Shown one piece after another: positions 3,939 through 9,705 of a DNA stretch of 10,749 nucleotides. The DNA comes from Pseudomonadota bacterium (lineage in GTDB: Bacteria > Pseudomonadota > Gammaproteobacteria > Burkholderiales > Burkholderiaceae_C): assembly GCA_018241985.1 (NCBI GenBank), contig JAFECV010000032.1, positions 1 through 10,749 of the forward strand, given 5' to 3'. How positions within the stretch are numbered: position 1 is the first letter of the stretch; every line of letters starts with the position of its first letter. A program made the position numbers and the translations under genes. The notes under the pieces are model-generated. The model did not search any database, was not told the DNA's origin, and worked only from the letters and a program-made list of their open reading frames with translations.

Positions 3939-5108
3939 TCAGAGTTCTTCCACCCGGCGTGCCGGGTAGCTGTCCCAGGCCTGGCAGCCCGGGCATTGCC
4001 AGAAATGCTGGTTCACCTCGAAGCCACAGGCGGCGCAGCGGTAGCGCAGCAGCGGCCTGGCCGCATGGTCGAGCGCACGCTGCACCGGCGCATGGTACTG
4101 CTCGTGCTCGAGCCGCTCGCCGGCGATCCATTTGGCGGCGGCGACCAGCGATGGTTCGTGCTCGAGGTGGCGCACGTACCATTCGCGCGCCGCGCCATCC
4201 GGTTGTGCGTTTTGCGTCGCCTCGGTGAGCGCGACGATCGCGTCCAGCAGGTCGAGCGAAGGCACACGTGTATAGGCGTCCTTCAAGATCTGCAGCGCCC
4301 GGCCGCCCTGGCCGCAGGCGACCGCCGCCTCGCGCAGCAGCTGGGCGGCCAGCGGCAGCGATTGCGGCGCCGCTTCGACCAGCGCATCGAGCGCCTGCAG
4401 CGCGGCCGCCGACTCGCCCGAGCGCAGCAGCAGCGCGGCCAGTTCGATGCGCGGCCGCGGCGCATGCGGCGCGGCCGCCGCCGCCTGCTCGAGCAGCCGG
4501 CGTGCGGCGGCTTCGTTGCCGGCGCCGGTCTGCGCCGCCGCCTGCTCGCACAGGTAATGCGCCTGCCGCGCGCGAAAGCTCCCCTGGCCGGCCTCGTCGA
4601 GCCGGGCCGCGATGCGCGCCGCCTGCGGCCAGTCGTGCGAGCGCTCGAAGATCGACAGCAGCGCGAGGTTCGCCTGCGACTCGAACGGCGTGCCTTCGAG
4701 CTTGCCGAATGCGTCCTCGGCGCGATCGAGCAGTCCGGCCTTCAGGAAATCGGTGGCCAGCGCGTACTGCGCGCGTTCGCGGTCGGCGCGGCTCAGGTCG
4801 CCGCGCGACAGCAGATGCTCGTGCACGCGCACCGCGCGTTCGTACTCGCCGCGGCGGCGGAATAGGTTGCCGAGCGCGAAGTGCAGTTCGGACGTGTCCG
4901 GGTCGCTCTGCACCGCCTCGATGAACGCGTCGATCGCGTGGTCCTGCTGTTCGTTCAGCAGGAAGGTCAGTCCGCGGAAGTAGGCCTTCGGCGCCTGCCG
5001 GTTTTCCATGCGCAGCTGGCGCAGGTCCAGCCGCGACGCGATCCAGCCCAGCACGAAGGCGACCGGCAGGCCGAGCAGAATCCAGCTCAGACTGAAATCA
5101 AGTTCCAT
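3939..5108 (-). CDS. lapB: LapB (YciM), lipopolysaccharide assembly protein with TPR repeats and rubredoxin-like metal domain
   Basis: In E. coli LapB is an inner-membrane-anchored cytoplasmic adaptor that promotes FtsH proteolysis of LpxC, the first committed enzyme of lipid A synthesis, and is itself restrained by PbgA/YejM. This product has 389 residues, matching my recollection of the E. coli length. It begins with one membrane anchor (about 6-24), then QAPKAYFRGLTFLLNEQ at about 38-54, a long run of tetratricopeptide repeats to about residue 330, and a C-terminal rubredoxin-type zinc/iron site. That site has Cys358 and Cys361 (RCAACGF) and Cys372 and Cys375 (QCPGCQ), followed by WDSYP. 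All four cysteines are present. The start at 5108 is chosen because the membrane anchor begins there and overlaps the lapA stop; the frame stays open 60 codons further upstream without family-like sequence. Translational coupling to lapA is likely. Confidence 0.95.
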   Translation of the reverse strand: MELDFSLSWILLGLPVAFVLGWIASRLDLRQLRMENRQAPKAYFRGLTFLLNEQQDHAIDAFIEAVQSDPDTSELHFALGNLFRRRGEYERAVRVHEHLLSRGDLSRADRERAQYALATDFLKAGLLDRAEDAFGKLEGTPFESQANLALLSIFERSHDWPQAARIAARLDEAGQGSFRARQAHYLCEQAAAQTGAGNEAAARRLLEQAAAAAPHAPRPRIELAALLLRSGESAAALQALDALVEAAPQSLPLAAQLLREAAVACGQGGRALQILKDAYTRVPSLDLLDAIVALTEATQNAQPDGAAREWYVRHLEHEPSLVAAAKWIAGERLEHEQYHAPVQRALDHAARPLLRYRCAACGFEVNQHFWQCPGCQAWDSYPARRVEEL

Positions 5109-5388
5109 CGCGTGCGGCGTCGGCGCCCGGTTCGTGGGCCGAGGCCGCCATGGCGCCGGCCTGCCGGGCGCGCCGCGCCGCGCTGCGGTGCTTCCACCAG
5201 CGCGGGACCATGCCGAGCACGCCGAGCAGCACGCCGAGCGCGAACGCGACCAGCACCACCAGCACCAGCGGCGCACGCCACTCGGCACCGAAGAAGAAGT
5301 GCACGGTGGCGTCCTGCTGGTTGTTCAGCGCGAACGCGAGCAACGAAAAAAAAATGGCTGCCTTCAGCAGCCACATGAGGTATTTCAT
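5098..5388 (-). CDS. lapA: LapA (YciS), lipopolysaccharide assembly membrane protein
   Basis: 96 residues; a two-helix inner-membrane protein that works next to LapB. Membrane segments lie at about 5-21 and 39-61. Between them is the family signature LNNQQDATVHFFFG (21-34), and a basic cytoplasmic tail follows (RWWKHRSAARRARQ). The gene overlaps lapB by 11 bases: the shared string ATGGAACTTGA holds the lapB start and the lapA TGA. The start at 5388 fits the family's N-terminus, but the preceding bases (GGGGCCGGTGC) form only a weak ribosome binding site. An 8-bp direct repeat, CACCGGCC on the plus strand (5390-5397 and 5403-5410), abuts the start codon. Codons 6-15 coincide with a complete intrinsic terminator, listed separately. 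Isoleucine and two phenylalanines there use ATT TTT TTT, whereas the later Phe triplet of the same gene uses TTC TTC TTC. Confidence 0.93.
   Translation of the reverse strand: MKYLMWLLKAAIFFSLLAFALNNQQDATVHFFFGAEWRAPLVLVVLVAFALGVLLGVLGMVPRWWKHRSAARRARQAGAMAASAHEPGADAARDGT
5346..5373 (-). terminator. Intrinsic terminator inside the lapA coding sequence (probable attenuator)
   Basis: On the minus strand, TGGCTGC (5373-5367) and GCAGCCA (5361-5355) form a perfect 7-bp stem around the loop TGAAG, followed at once by nine Ts (5354-5346). A G-U pair with the first T can extend the stem to eight. It lies 43 bases from the lapA start codon to the end of the U-run and about 85 bases after the ihfB stop. 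By standard rules it should terminate transcription when not covered by ribosomes. It may serve as the 3' end of rpsA-ihfB mRNA and as a translation-sensitive gate for lapAB. Termination efficiency is not measured here. Confidence 0.72.
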
Positions 5389-5431
5389 GCACCGGCCCCG
5401 GTCACCGGCCGATTCTAGCGATGCGGCGCTT

Positions 5432-5746
5432 TCATGCCGTCTCGGCCTGGGCTTCGAGCTCGCGCGTGCGCCGGTCGACCGCCTCGCGCAGTGCCTTGCC
5501 GGGCTTGAAATGCGGCACGCGCTTCTCGGGGATCGTGACCGTTTCGCCGGAGCGCGGGTTGCGTCCGAGCCGCGGCGGGCGGCGGCTGATCGAAAAGCTG
5601 CCGAAGCCGCGGATTTCGATCCGGTGCCCGCGCACCAGTGCATCGCTCATCGCGTCGAGCATCGCCTTCACCGCGAATTCGGCGTCGCGGTGCTTGAGCT
5701 GCGCGAAACGGGCGGCCAGTTCTTCGACGAGATCGGAGCGGGTCAT
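5432..5746 (-). CDS. ihfB: Integration host factor, beta subunit
   Basis: 104 residues of the HU/IHF family; with IhfA it forms the heterodimer that bends DNA sharply at specific sites in transcription, replication and recombination. Seen in the sequence: [14 protein letters not shown] at the N-terminus, RGFGSFSI at 46-53, and the arm motif GRNPRSGE at 61-68 with Pro64, the residue that intercalates between base pairs. [16 protein letters not shown] follows at 76-91. The RNPxxGE arm and the position after rpsA identify the beta subunit rather than HU. The C-terminus is about ten residues longer than in E. coli, rich in Glu, Arg and Ala. The open frame extends 38 codons upstream, but the family N-terminus fixes ATG 5746. 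No strong ribosome binding site is visible (upstream bases GAATCCACCG). It follows rpsA by 61 bases containing a perfect hairpin. Confidence 0.96.
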
Positions 5747-5807: not shown

Positions 5808-7505
5808 TCAGTTGTCGCTGTTGTTGTTGCTGTGGTCCAGCTTGGCGCGCAGCAGCGCACCGAGGCTGGTGGTGCCGGCGCTCTCGCGTACCGACTGCTG
5901 GCTCAGCTGCTGCATCGCTTCCTGCTGGTCGGCCGCGTCCTTCGCGCGGATCGACAGCTGGATGTTGCGCGTCTTGCGATCGACGTTGACGACCACCGCG
6001 GTGACCTCGTCGCCTTCCTTCAGCACGTTGCGGGCGTCTTCGACCCGGTCGCGGCTGATCTCGGACGCGCGCAGGTAGCCGATCACGTCCTGGCCCAGGT
6101 CGATCTCGGCGCCGCGCGGGTCGACCGTCTTCACGCGGCCGGTCACCGTGTGGCCCTTGTCGTTGACCGTGACGAAGGTCGTGAACGGGTCCGAGTCGAG
6201 CTGCTTGATGCCGAGCGAGATGCGCTCGCGGTCCACGTCGACCGCCAGCACGATGGCTTCGACGTCCTGGCCCTTCTTGTAGTTGCGCACCGCCGTTTCG
6301 CCGGGCTCGTTCCAGCTCAGGTCGGACAGGTGCACCAGGCCGTCGATGCCGGCGGCGAGACCGACGAAGATGCCGAAGTCGGTGATCGACTTGATCGGAC
6401 CCTTCACGCGGTCGCCGCGCTTGGTGTTCTGCGCGAACTCCTGCCACGGATTGGCCTTGCACTGCTTCATGCCGAGGCTGATGCGGCGCTTGTCCTCGTC
6501 GATCTCGAGCACCATGACCTCGACCTCGTCACCCATCGAAACGATCTTGGCCGGCGCGACGTTCTTGTTCGTCCAGTCCATCTCGGAGACGTGGACCAGG
6601 CCTTCGATGCCCGGCTCGAGCTCGACGAACGCGCCGTAGTCGGCGATGTTCGTCACGCGGCCGAACATGCGCGTGCCCTGCGGATAGCGGCGCGAGACGC
6701 CGAGCCACGGGTCGTCGCCCATCTGCTTCAGGCCCAGCGATACACGGTTCTTCTCGGCGTCGAACTTGAGGATCTTGGCGGTGATTTCCTGGCCGGTCTG
6801 CACAACCTCGGTCGGGTGGCGCACGCGGCGCCAGGCCATGTCGGTGATGTGCAGCAGGCCGTCGATGCCGCCGAGGTCGACGAACGCGCCGTATTCGGTG
6901 ATGTTCTTCACCACGCCGTTCACGATCGCGCCTTCCTTGAGCGTCTCGAGCAGCTTCGCGCGCTCCTCGCCCATGCTGGCCTCGACCACCGCGCGGCGCG
7001 ACAGCACGACGTTGTTGCGCTTGCGGTCGAGCTTGATGACCTTGAATTCGAGCGTCTTGTTCTCGTACGGGGTCAGGTCCTTCACCGGACGCGTGTCGAT
7101 CAGCGAACCCGGCAGGAACGCGCGGATGCCGTTCACCAGCACGGTCAGGCCGCCCTTGACCCGGCCGCTGGTCGTGCCATGCACGAACTCGCCGGACTCG
7201 AGCGCTTTCTCCAGCGCCATCCAGGACGCGAGGCGCTTGGCCTTGTCCCGCGACAGGATGGTGTCGCCGTAGCCGTTCTCGATCGCGTCGATCGCGACCG
7301 ACACGAAGTCGCCGGGCTGCACTTCGATCTCGCCCTGATCGCTCTTGAATTCGTCGATCGGCACGTAGGCTTCGGACTTGAGCCCGGCGTTGACCACGAC
7401 GAAGTTGTGCTCGACGCGGATCACCTCGGCGGTGACCACCTCGCCGGCGCGCATCTCGGAGCGCTGCAGCGATTCTTCGAACAGGGCGGCAAATGATTCA
7501 GACAT
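5808..7505 (-). CDS. rpsA: 30S ribosomal protein S1
   Basis: 565 residues, close to the 557 of E. coli S1. S1 binds mRNA on the 30S subunit and delivers it for initiation, especially on transcripts with weak Shine-Dalgarno sites. Six S1 (OB-fold) repeats are visible, starting at about residues 21, 105, 192, 277, 364 and 451. Repeats 3-5 carry the classic pattern, for example [19 protein letters not shown] (205-223), [20 protein letters not shown] (290-309) and [20 protein letters not shown] (377-396). The first two repeats, which bind the ribosome, are more divergent, as expected. The C-terminal tail is short and Asn/Ser-rich (DHSNNNSDN). ATG 7505 is chosen because [13 protein letters not shown] is the normal start and a good Shine-Dalgarno site precedes it; the frame is open 42 codons further upstream, but that part is structured leader. 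Likely transcribed from a promoter inside cmk as well as from upstream. Confidence 0.98.
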
Positions 7506-7683: not shown

Positions 7684-9705
7684 TCAGGGGATCAGAGGTG
7701 TTGCCCCGAACGGCTGCTTGCGCTGCCACTCGTCCAGCACCCGCAGGACCGATTGCTCGATCGACATGTCGGAGTTGTCCAGAAGCAGCGCATCCTCGGC
7801 CGGTTTCAGGGGCGCGACGCTGCGCGACGAATCGCGTGTATCGCGCGCCTCCAAGTCGGCGCGAAGACTGTCAAGTATAGCTGGAATTCCCTTTGAAATC
7901 AATTGCTTATAGCGCCGCTCGGCGCGCCGGGCGGCGCTTGCGGTGAGGAAGATTTTCAGCGGCGCATCGGGGAAGACGACGGTTCCCATGTCGCGGCCGT
8001 CGGCAACCAGGCCCGGCAGCCGGCGAAACCCGTGCTGCAGCGCCAGCAGCGCCGTGCGCACCGCCGGCAGCGCCGAGACCTGGGACGCATTCATGCCGGC
8101 TTGCTCGGTGCGGATCGCGTCGCTGACGTCTTCGCCGTCCAGCCAGATCTGGGTGGCCGAGAAGCGGATCGGCAACTGCTGCGCCATCGCGGCGATCGCG
8201 ACCTCGTGCGCCGCGTCGAGCGCGAAGCCGGCGCGGACCGCGGCCAGGCCGGTGAGACGGTACAGCGCGCCCGAGTCCAGATAGTGGTAGCCGAGCCGCT
8301 CGGCGAGCGCGGCCGCCAGCGTGCCCTTGCCGGACGCGCTCGGCCCGTCCACGCAGATCACCGGGATGCGCGCCGCGTAGGTGTGGGCGAGCGAGAACAG
8401 CGCCTCGAAGTAGTCCGGGAAGGTCTTCGCGACGCATTTCGGGTCTTCGATGCGCACCGGCAGCCCGGCCGGGTTGAACGCGGCGAGCGCGAAGCACATC
8501 GCGATCCGGTGGTCGTCGTAGGTGCGGATGCTGGCCGCGCGCCAGTCGGCCGGGGTCGCCGGCGGCGTGACGCGCAGGAAGTCCGCGCCTTCGTCCACCA
8601 GGGCGCCGAGCTTGCGCAGTTCGGCCGCCATCGCCGCGATGCGGTCGGTTTCCTTCACGCGCCAGCTCGCGATGTTGCGCAGCGTCGACGGGCCGTCGGC
8701 GTACAGCGCCAGCACCGCCAGCGTCATCGCGGCGTCGGGGATGTGGTTGCAGTCGATGTCGATCGCGTGCAGCGGCCAGGCCCCGCGCGACACCTCGAGC
8801 CAGTTCGCGCCGCTGACGATGGTGGCGCCCATCGCGCGCGCCGCGTCGACGAACCGGATGTCGCCCTGGATCGAATCCGCGCCGACGCCCTCGATTCTGA
8901 CCTCTTTCTGGCCTGCAGCGCCCGTTGTCAGCGCACCGAGCGCTATGAAATAACTAGCAGACGAGGCGTCGGCCTCGACCGCGATGGTGCCGGGCGAGCG
9001 GTAGCGGCTGCCGGCCGGGATGGTGAACCGCTGCCAGCCCTGGCGCTGGACCGCGATGCCGAAGCGCGCCAGGAGATTCAGCGTGATCTCGATGTAGGGC
9101 TTGGAGATCAGTTCGCCGTCGACTTCGATCACGATGTCCTGCTTGGCCGCGACCAGCGGCAGCGCCATCAGCAGCGCGGTCAGGAACTGGCTTGACACGT
9201 CGCCGCGCACTCGAACCGGCTGGTCCAATTGAAGCCGAGGCGGCGCGATGCGCAGCGGCGGATAGCCGGGCCGGCCCAGGTAGTCGATGCGGCAGCCGAG
9301 CCCGCGCAGCGCGTCCACCAGGTCGCCGATCGGCCGCTCGTGCATGCGCGCCACGCCGCTCAGTTCGAACTCGCCGCCGAGCAGCGCCAGCGCCGCGGTC
9401 AGCGGACGCATCGCGGTGCCGGCGTTGCCCATGAACAGACGCGCGCGCCGTGTCTTGAGCTGCCCGCCCAGCCCGGCGATCCGCAGCCCGCCGGCGACGG
9501 ACTCGACGCCGCAGCCCAGTTCCTCGAGCGCCGTCACCATGATGCGGGTGTCGTCCGAGTCCAGCGGATCGAGCACCGTGGTGCTGCCGGCGCACAGCGC
9601 CGCCAGCAGCAGCACCCGGTTCGAGATGCTCTTGGAGCCGGGCAGGGCGATCGACCCGCCGGCGGTGCGCAGCGCGGGAATGTCGAGGAACGCGGTGGTG
9701 TACAT
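7684..9705 (-). CDS. aroA-cmk: Bifunctional 3-phosphoshikimate 1-carboxyvinyltransferase (EPSP synthase)-cytidylate kinase fusion
   Basis: 673 residues in one uninterrupted frame. Residues 1 to about 437 are AroA, which joins PEP to shikimate 3-phosphate in chorismate synthesis. It shows [10 protein letters not shown] (21-30, Lys25), NAGTAMRPL (94-102, with Gly96, Thr97 and Pro101 as in class I, glyphosate-sensitive enzymes), ASSASYF (247-253), RVKETDRI (349-356) and YDDHRIAM (396-403). After a linker of about ten residues, residues 447-673 are Cmk, which phosphorylates CMP and dCMP: P-loop GPSASGKGT (454-462), YLDSGALYR (475-483), [11 protein letters not shown] (569-579), and [11 protein letters not shown] (591-601). 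Neither half lacks a key residue, so both should be active. Elsewhere aroA and cmk are separate neighbours. Start 9705 matches the family N-terminus; the binding site is weak. It begins 31 bases after the tyrA stop. Two low-GC codon patches are described separately. Confidence 0.96.
7874..7902 (-). promoter_or_regulatory. Sigma-70-like promoter inside cmk, directed at rpsA
   Basis: On the minus strand -35 TTGATT (7902-7897) and -10 TATACT (7879-7874) are separated by exactly 17 bp. They match consensus at 4/6 and 5/6 positions. The elements lie in a low-GC island whose codons (CAA TTG ATT TCA AAG GGA ATT CCA and onward) contrast with the GC-ending codons around them, suggesting selection on the DNA as well as the protein. 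Transcription would start near 7867, giving a leader of about 360 bases before rpsA. E. coli rpsA likewise uses promoters upstream and within cmk. Confidence 0.65.

Follow-up and report, generated by a model that had tools for sequence, protein, structure and literature searches.

The early codons of lapA hold a hairpin followed directly by a run of Ts, and comparison among relatives indicates that this stem and U-run are under selection as RNA, being dual-coding with the lapA protein. Intrinsic terminators normally lie outside genes. The reading that we favor, with a probability of roughly 0.55, is an RNA-selected intrinsic terminator within lapA codons 6-15, acting as a leaky default stop that would set a low and fixed flow of transcription into lapA and lapB. 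In E. coli LapB is described as controlling the proteolysis of LpxC and hence the level of LPS, and the element is placed between the genes for S1 and IHF on one side and the lapA-lapB pair on the other. The presence of a terminator-like element within the first 15 lapA codons in no fewer than 58 genera, its pairing kept even where amino acids change, represents a clear case of dual coding and suggests that annotation ignoring in-gene terminators can miss conserved control sites.

The lapA locus and its hairpin

The window, i.e., the whole stretch of 10,749 nucleotides that was analysed, contains rpsA, ihfB, lapA and lapB on the minus strand in this order of transcription. The features needed below are as follows (carriers are the 128 lapA genes bearing the element):

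5808..7505, minus strand: rpsA, ribosomal protein S1, with six S1 domain stretches
5432..5746, minus strand: ihfB, HU/IHF family (PF00216), upstream of lapA
5412..5417, minus strand: TAGAAT, conserved -10-like hexamer (TANAAT upstream of the ATG in 121/128 carriers; 1.1% by shuffle)
5391..5413, minus strand: leader hairpin between the -10-like hexamer and the ATG, obtained by folding, in which 5413-5407 pairs with 5397-5391; moderate covariation in relatives
5098..5388, minus strand: lapA, 96 aa, LapA_dom (PF06305), from the domain match and in-frame translation; start at 5388
5367..5373, minus strand: left arm of the terminator stem, TGGCTGC, codons 6-8, from the sequence; 7/7 stem pairs standard in 40/40 aligned rows
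5362..5366, minus strand: loop, TGAAG; mostly TCAAG in relatives and longer in lineages with an inserted segment
5355..5361, minus strand: right arm of the stem, GCAGCCA, codons 10-12, including the rare Ala codon GCA
5346..5354, minus strand: U-run, nine Ts formed by Ile12 ATT, Phe13 TTT, Phe14 TTT and the first base of Ser15
3939..5108, minus strand: lapB, downstream of lapA, with TPR repeats and Zn_ribbon_LapB (domain search on 3942-5102)

The start of lapB overlaps the 3′ end of lapA, and ihfB, lapA and lapB are collinear in all 185 of the 185 loci having both neighbours. Farther upstream, a 673-aa frame at 7684..9705 of the minus strand appears, judged by eye from its translation, to be a fusion of AroA (EPSP synthase) and cytidylate kinase.

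The initial annotation had reported a hairpin and nine Ts inside the lapA frame, and both the sequence and the reading frame proved exact: positions 5373..5346 of the minus strand read TGGCTGC-TGAAG-GCAGCCA-T9, giving a 7-bp G+C-rich stem, a 5-nt loop and a T9 tract immediately adjoining, while codons 6-15 are TGG CTG CTG AAG GCA GCC ATT TTT TTT TCG (W6 L L K A A I F F S15). Its remark that F31-F33 of the same gene are written TTC TTC TTC agrees with the sequence as well. Thus the element has the defining make-up of an intrinsic terminator, a G+C-rich stem passing directly into a U-rich run. The hairpin alone has a dG of -12.1 kcal/mol and is contained in the fold of the 101 nt around the element, the whole of which is of ordinary stability (z -1.16). 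Among 10 terminator-like sites returned by a generic scan of the window, where shuffles expect 4.3, the lapA element is at the top, and T9 occurs just three times in the 3.13-Mb draft genome. In the 128 carriers the T-run measures 7, 8 or 9 in 32, 94 and 2 genes, respectively. A T9 tract is long enough for slippage, T7-T8 tracts being poor substrates; slippage or phase variation at T9 as a conserved function was considered and rejected, 126 of the 128 carriers having T7-T8.

Searches in Rfam gave 0 matches at the gathering score in the window and, for six relatives at up to E 5, eight weak matches, none of them covering the lapA element; the literature searched yielded no published account of a lapA-internal terminator.

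Selection beyond the protein code

Relatives were compared in a set of lapA genes from the family and beyond, in which 189 of 191 sources were parsed to 170 distinct CDS, 167 of them with ihfB; the four loci from the genome of the window itself (L001-L004) were left out, and two loci, L018 and L095, were mis-assigned and lost though both carry the element. Since the loci came partly from a similarity-ranked search with the window (best 80 of 313), percentages of loci lean to carriers.

Stem and T≥7 together are found in 122 of the 170 distinct CDS as compared to 1.26 expected upon recoding with each locus's codon usage. When the window sequence itself was resampled with local codon usage, T≥7 appeared in 0.8% of cases and a 7-bp stem in 14.6%, and the two never coincided in 500 draws. 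Particular codons account for this excess in the 105 non-insertion relatives: Ala10 is GCA in 92% (usage 9%), Ile12 is ATT in 94% (usage 11%), and TTT is used in 97% at Phe13 and 72% at Phe14 (usage 22%). Together, rpsA, ihfB and lapB have 516 conserved degenerate codon columns, among which none is as biased as GCA10 or ATT12 and two are as biased as TTT13, and at lapA codons 15-19 the bias is back to background, i.e., the constraint stops with the U-run. The same boundary is met in 4103 genome pairs diverged at synonymous sites of lapB, where the same codon encodes shared residues in 92% of cases for codons 7-14, 77% for codons 2-6, 62% for codons 15-45 and 58% for lapB. No weight is put on lapA codons 2-6, because codon 2 (AAA) is as extreme as the codons of the element and codons 3-6 of ihfB are likewise biased; codon 4 (CTC) is also conserved. 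Nor does the protein demand the U-run, since L014, L028 and L178 encode KAAIFF without it. The suggestion of the initial annotation that the U-run looks selected is thus borne out and extends to the stem, and the alignment of relatives that it had proposed as a check reveals conservation of both well past the protein's demand.

Pairing was followed in two alignments. In the 40 dereplicated rows of the non-insertion type the stem is paired in every row with six of seven pairs invariant, and because these never vary, the alignment is silent on compensation in the stem; for both helices together the covariation is weak (17/500 shuffles reach the score and 396/500 the count of doubly changed pairs), and all doubly changed pairs belong to the leader hairpin. 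RNAalifold returned the terminator and did not return the leader hairpin. The insertion-type group, which has four residues inserted between the arms, keeps the stem 91% paired in 25 rows and has five of 12 stem pairs altered on both sides. Scored jointly with the leader hairpin, its covariation is matched by 0 of 500 shuffles; a control with partners slid by -1 gave more doubly changed pairs (8 vs 7) and half the score (0.083 vs 0.177), and the structure itself was drawn from two of the sequences in that alignment. Individual substitutions are instructive: in L027 the outer pair T-A became C-G via altered Trp6 and the Ile preceding Phe-Phe, in L088 and L151 Lys to Glu is accompanied by CTT to CTC, and in L158 Lys to Gln is accompanied by CTT to CTG. 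As judged from these alignments, insertion lineages keep the stem through compensatory changes, some of them amino-acid altering.

A strict pattern search found the element in 136 of 399 family genomes and 58 of 141 genera, as compared to 0 for the reversed-pattern control, with two copies in one matching genome and one copy in all others; demanding exact arm letters, this pattern undercounts, and its tally is less biased than locus percentages. Named carriers include Acidovorax and Variovorax, which belong to Comamonadaceae, and Comamonas, Delftia, Ramlibacter and Rhodoferax, which we take to belong there too. The element has been seen so far in Comamonadaceae-type genomes, and it is absent from eight loci of other families (L187-L194). 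A scan of 399 genomes of the order used the pattern N{2,17}, which sees the insertion type only, so that its result of 1/399 says nothing on absence in other families; the sole insertion-type match (G570:C37:249284-249320) is in an other-family genome and may reflect draft contamination or transfer. On a tree of 149 tips, 111 with and 38 without the element, its distribution takes 10 changes as compared to 33.7 for shuffled labels (minimum 28), which suggests an old gain followed by some losses. Three loci of a neighbouring lineage (L163, L102 and L090) have a long stem in the same place and a T-run that is interrupted (TTTTCTTC), which may be an intermediate or a decayed version.

Proposed default termination and its alternatives

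Upstream of the element, the conserved hexamer looks like a -10 element, and by this hexamer alone a putative lapA promoter is placed. Its distance to the ATG is 21-24 nt in 108 of the 121 carriers having it (22 nt in 68; full range 19-32 nt), and the first purine from 6 nt onward is 7 nt past the hexamer in 78/121. A -35 element is not conserved, the mean match being 2.70 vs 2.60 in shifted controls with no strongly conserved columns there. Of 15 occurrences of TAGAAT in 400 kb, 12 are not within called ORF bodies, a weak enrichment ranking just 15th among 60 permutations, and literature searches found no published transcription start-site data for Comamonadaceae or Acidovorax. In eight family non-carriers (L030, L032, L033, L165, L167, L174, L175 and L183) the hexamer TAGAAT is 6-9 nt from the ATG, which suggests a nearly leaderless lapA mRNA in those lineages.

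In the reading that we favor, RNA polymerases reading through from rpsA-ihfB would stop at the U-run by default, as would part of those coming from the likely promoter just upstream of lapA, and the fraction leaking past the terminator would supply lapA-lapB at a low, fixed rate. Read-through would be greater with a ribosome already under way on lapA, probably as a modulation and not as the main switch. Termination at the U-run is likely, and default termination is the simplest reading because the site does not fall short of other terminator-like sites in strength: in 400 kb sampled from a genome of the same genus it is 8th of 18 by energy and one of two with eight Ts. The ORF caller missed lapA in this sample and labelled its site intergenic; four other matches are within called ORFs near starts, two of which (L214 and L215) look by eye like miscalled starts, and L212 and L207 have weaker hairpins.

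One role of the element may be to end rpsA-ihfB transcription and so insulate lapAB. A conventional terminator between ihfB and the hexamer is found in 3/128 carriers and 6/39 non-carriers (p 0.0056, ancestry ignored). The contrast is a weak one, since three of the six non-carrier cases belong to other families, and within the family it is 3/33 non-carriers vs 3/128 carriers (p 0.10). Insulation from ihfB alone does not explain the element, because three carriers (L046, L132 and L069) have the additional intergenic terminator-like site and hence both kinds. With its place downstream of the likely promoter, the site should also throttle transcription of lapA from that promoter, in keeping with the three genomes having both kinds. 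In L178 (G179) the element is replaced by ATCTTCTTC and a -22 kcal/mol intergenic terminator is present upstream of the hexamer, its sister L023 keeping the element, which is an apparent relocation of the terminator.

The initial annotation proposed a translation-gated attenuator resembling that of pyrBI, in which the terminator fires unless prompt lapA initiation covers the stem, so that lapAB expression would report the efficiency of initiation. We consider this doubtful as the main mechanism. Its geometry is suggestive: the stem begins at nucleotide +16, about the front edge of an initiating ribosome of usual footprint, and the U-run ends 41-43 nt past the AUG in 97 of the 128 carriers and 53-54 nt past it in the other 31, i.e., at distances confined to two narrow ranges. 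Moreover, at least 40 nt of intergenic room is available in 60/128 carriers, yet the terminator is within the ORF, and the lapA Shine-Dalgarno sequence is predicted to be largely paired in long transcripts (unpaired probability 0.26). The same distances argue against a pure gate on grounds of timing, because with the U-run ending 41-43 nt past the AUG polymerase transcribes only about 13 nt between exposing the AUG region and reaching the end of the U-run, and by usual footprints and rates a new ribosome would be unlikely to cover the stem in that time unless polymerase paused; nor was an antiterminator partner noticed, short of a systematic search. Gating stays a serious rival because intrinsic terminators can be suppressed by a ribosome that is already in place, pyrL being an example (PMC5021804, in the portion available).

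According to the initial annotation, a weak lapA ribosome site and a direct repeat at the start codon would make the gate sensitive, and S1, encoded upstream and promoting initiation on weak sites, could close a feedback loop. The weak site and the repeat are both present in the window and neither is general: Shine-Dalgarno sequences are strong in 98 of the 128 carriers, shorter in nine and absent from 21, the window being among the latter, and even in L005, the closest relative, the repeat is not perfect. In many relatives the 3′ arm of the leader hairpin is the Shine-Dalgarno sequence. Bases after the hexamer form a helix of at least 5 bp with the segment preceding the ATG in 65 of 102 leaders as compared to 45 in chimeric controls, with the variants CTTCCC/GGGAAG, GTTCCC/GGGAAC and CTTCTTC/GAAGAAG. 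In this species the start codon of lapA itself is predicted to be paired in a mini-hairpin (GCATGA/TCATGT, 5373..5390 of the minus strand) just upstream of the terminator.

This leader allows an unlikely gate of two locks, in which mRNA reading through from rpsA-ihfB would fold the discriminator onto the lapA Shine-Dalgarno sequence, stay untranslated and be terminated, while only mRNA from lapA's own promoter, devoid of the locking arm, would be translated and escape; the promoter of origin would thereby decide the control of LPS. In predicted folds, a release of the Shine-Dalgarno sequence according to transcript origin is not specifically supported, the unpaired probability in the shorter transcript rising from 0.26 to 0.40 for lapA (69/102 rise) and at least as much, from 0.45 to 0.67, for the ihfB control (85/102).

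It is quite unlikely that the product of biological relevance is the terminated RNA itself, about 58 nt from the lapA promoter to the U-run, serving as a regulatory sRNA that has a U-rich 3′ end and is conserved around AUGAAAUACCUC. Small RNAs derived from ORFs are described in E. coli (PMC7815308, in the part available), and the nearly constant spacing of the -10-like hexamer, the terminator with 7-9 Us and the conservation of codon 2 AAA and codon 4 CTC would suit such a product; the lack of a conserved -35 and of any Rfam match counts against it, as does the bias in ihfB codons 3-6, by which lapA codons 2-6 may simply serve initiation.

That no RNA signal is involved, and that start-proximal codon bias, a conserved protein motif, slippage or a DNA signal produced the pattern, is highly improbable: codon bias near gene starts is general and the KAAI residues ahead of Phe-Phe are conserved, but a G+C hairpin is the opposite of the usual start-proximal bias, KAAIFF is encoded without the U-run in the three loci named above, the constraint on codons 10-13 ends with the U-run, and the changes of Lys to Glu and Lys to Gln are matched in the opposite arm.

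Relation to known systems

The proposed behavior of lapA has counterparts among described regulatory devices. In the pyrBI operon of E. coli translation of the leader frame pyrL stops folding of an intrinsic terminator (PMC5021804, as far as the available text of this source goes), and the lapA terminator too overlaps an ORF, lapA translation being assumed. The two differ in that pyrL is a separate leader peptide whereas the lapA terminator is made of the gene's own first codons; with the hexamer 19-32 nt before the ATG (121/128 carriers), a transcript starting there would be too short upstream of lapA for a leader ORF. Sensing codons or a pause site, in an inspection short of systematic search, were not noticed in lapA. 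In phage T4 gene e, long transcripts hide the ribosome site by a structure, and those of the proximal promoters lack the 5′ part of this structure (PMC3014915, available portion); the lapA leader helix would, according to the predicted folds, confine such hiding to read-through transcripts. This resemblance is only suggestive, the predicted gain in accessibility being no larger than in the ihfB control; in addition, the available portion of that source describes no in-gene terminator (PMC3014915).

RNA 3′ ends and stable RNAs arising within coding sequences and 5′ UTRs are described in E. coli (PMC7815308, available part). Those ORF-internal ends come from RNA mapping in one species, whereas the lapA element is conserved, dual-coding and known from sequence comparison alone. 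For the DUF1127 uORF of Sinorhizobium meliloti, attenuation is linked both to initiation and to early codons that pair with the ribosome site (PMC12218461, available part); it differs in being an upstream ORF with C-rich codons, and the available part of this source describes no hairpin-plus-U-run within the regulated gene. The lapA element offers an easily mutated test of the interplay between early-ORF terminators and ribosomes. Set against these systems, lapA appears to represent a known principle in a new arrangement, in which the gene's own first codons form the predicted terminator.
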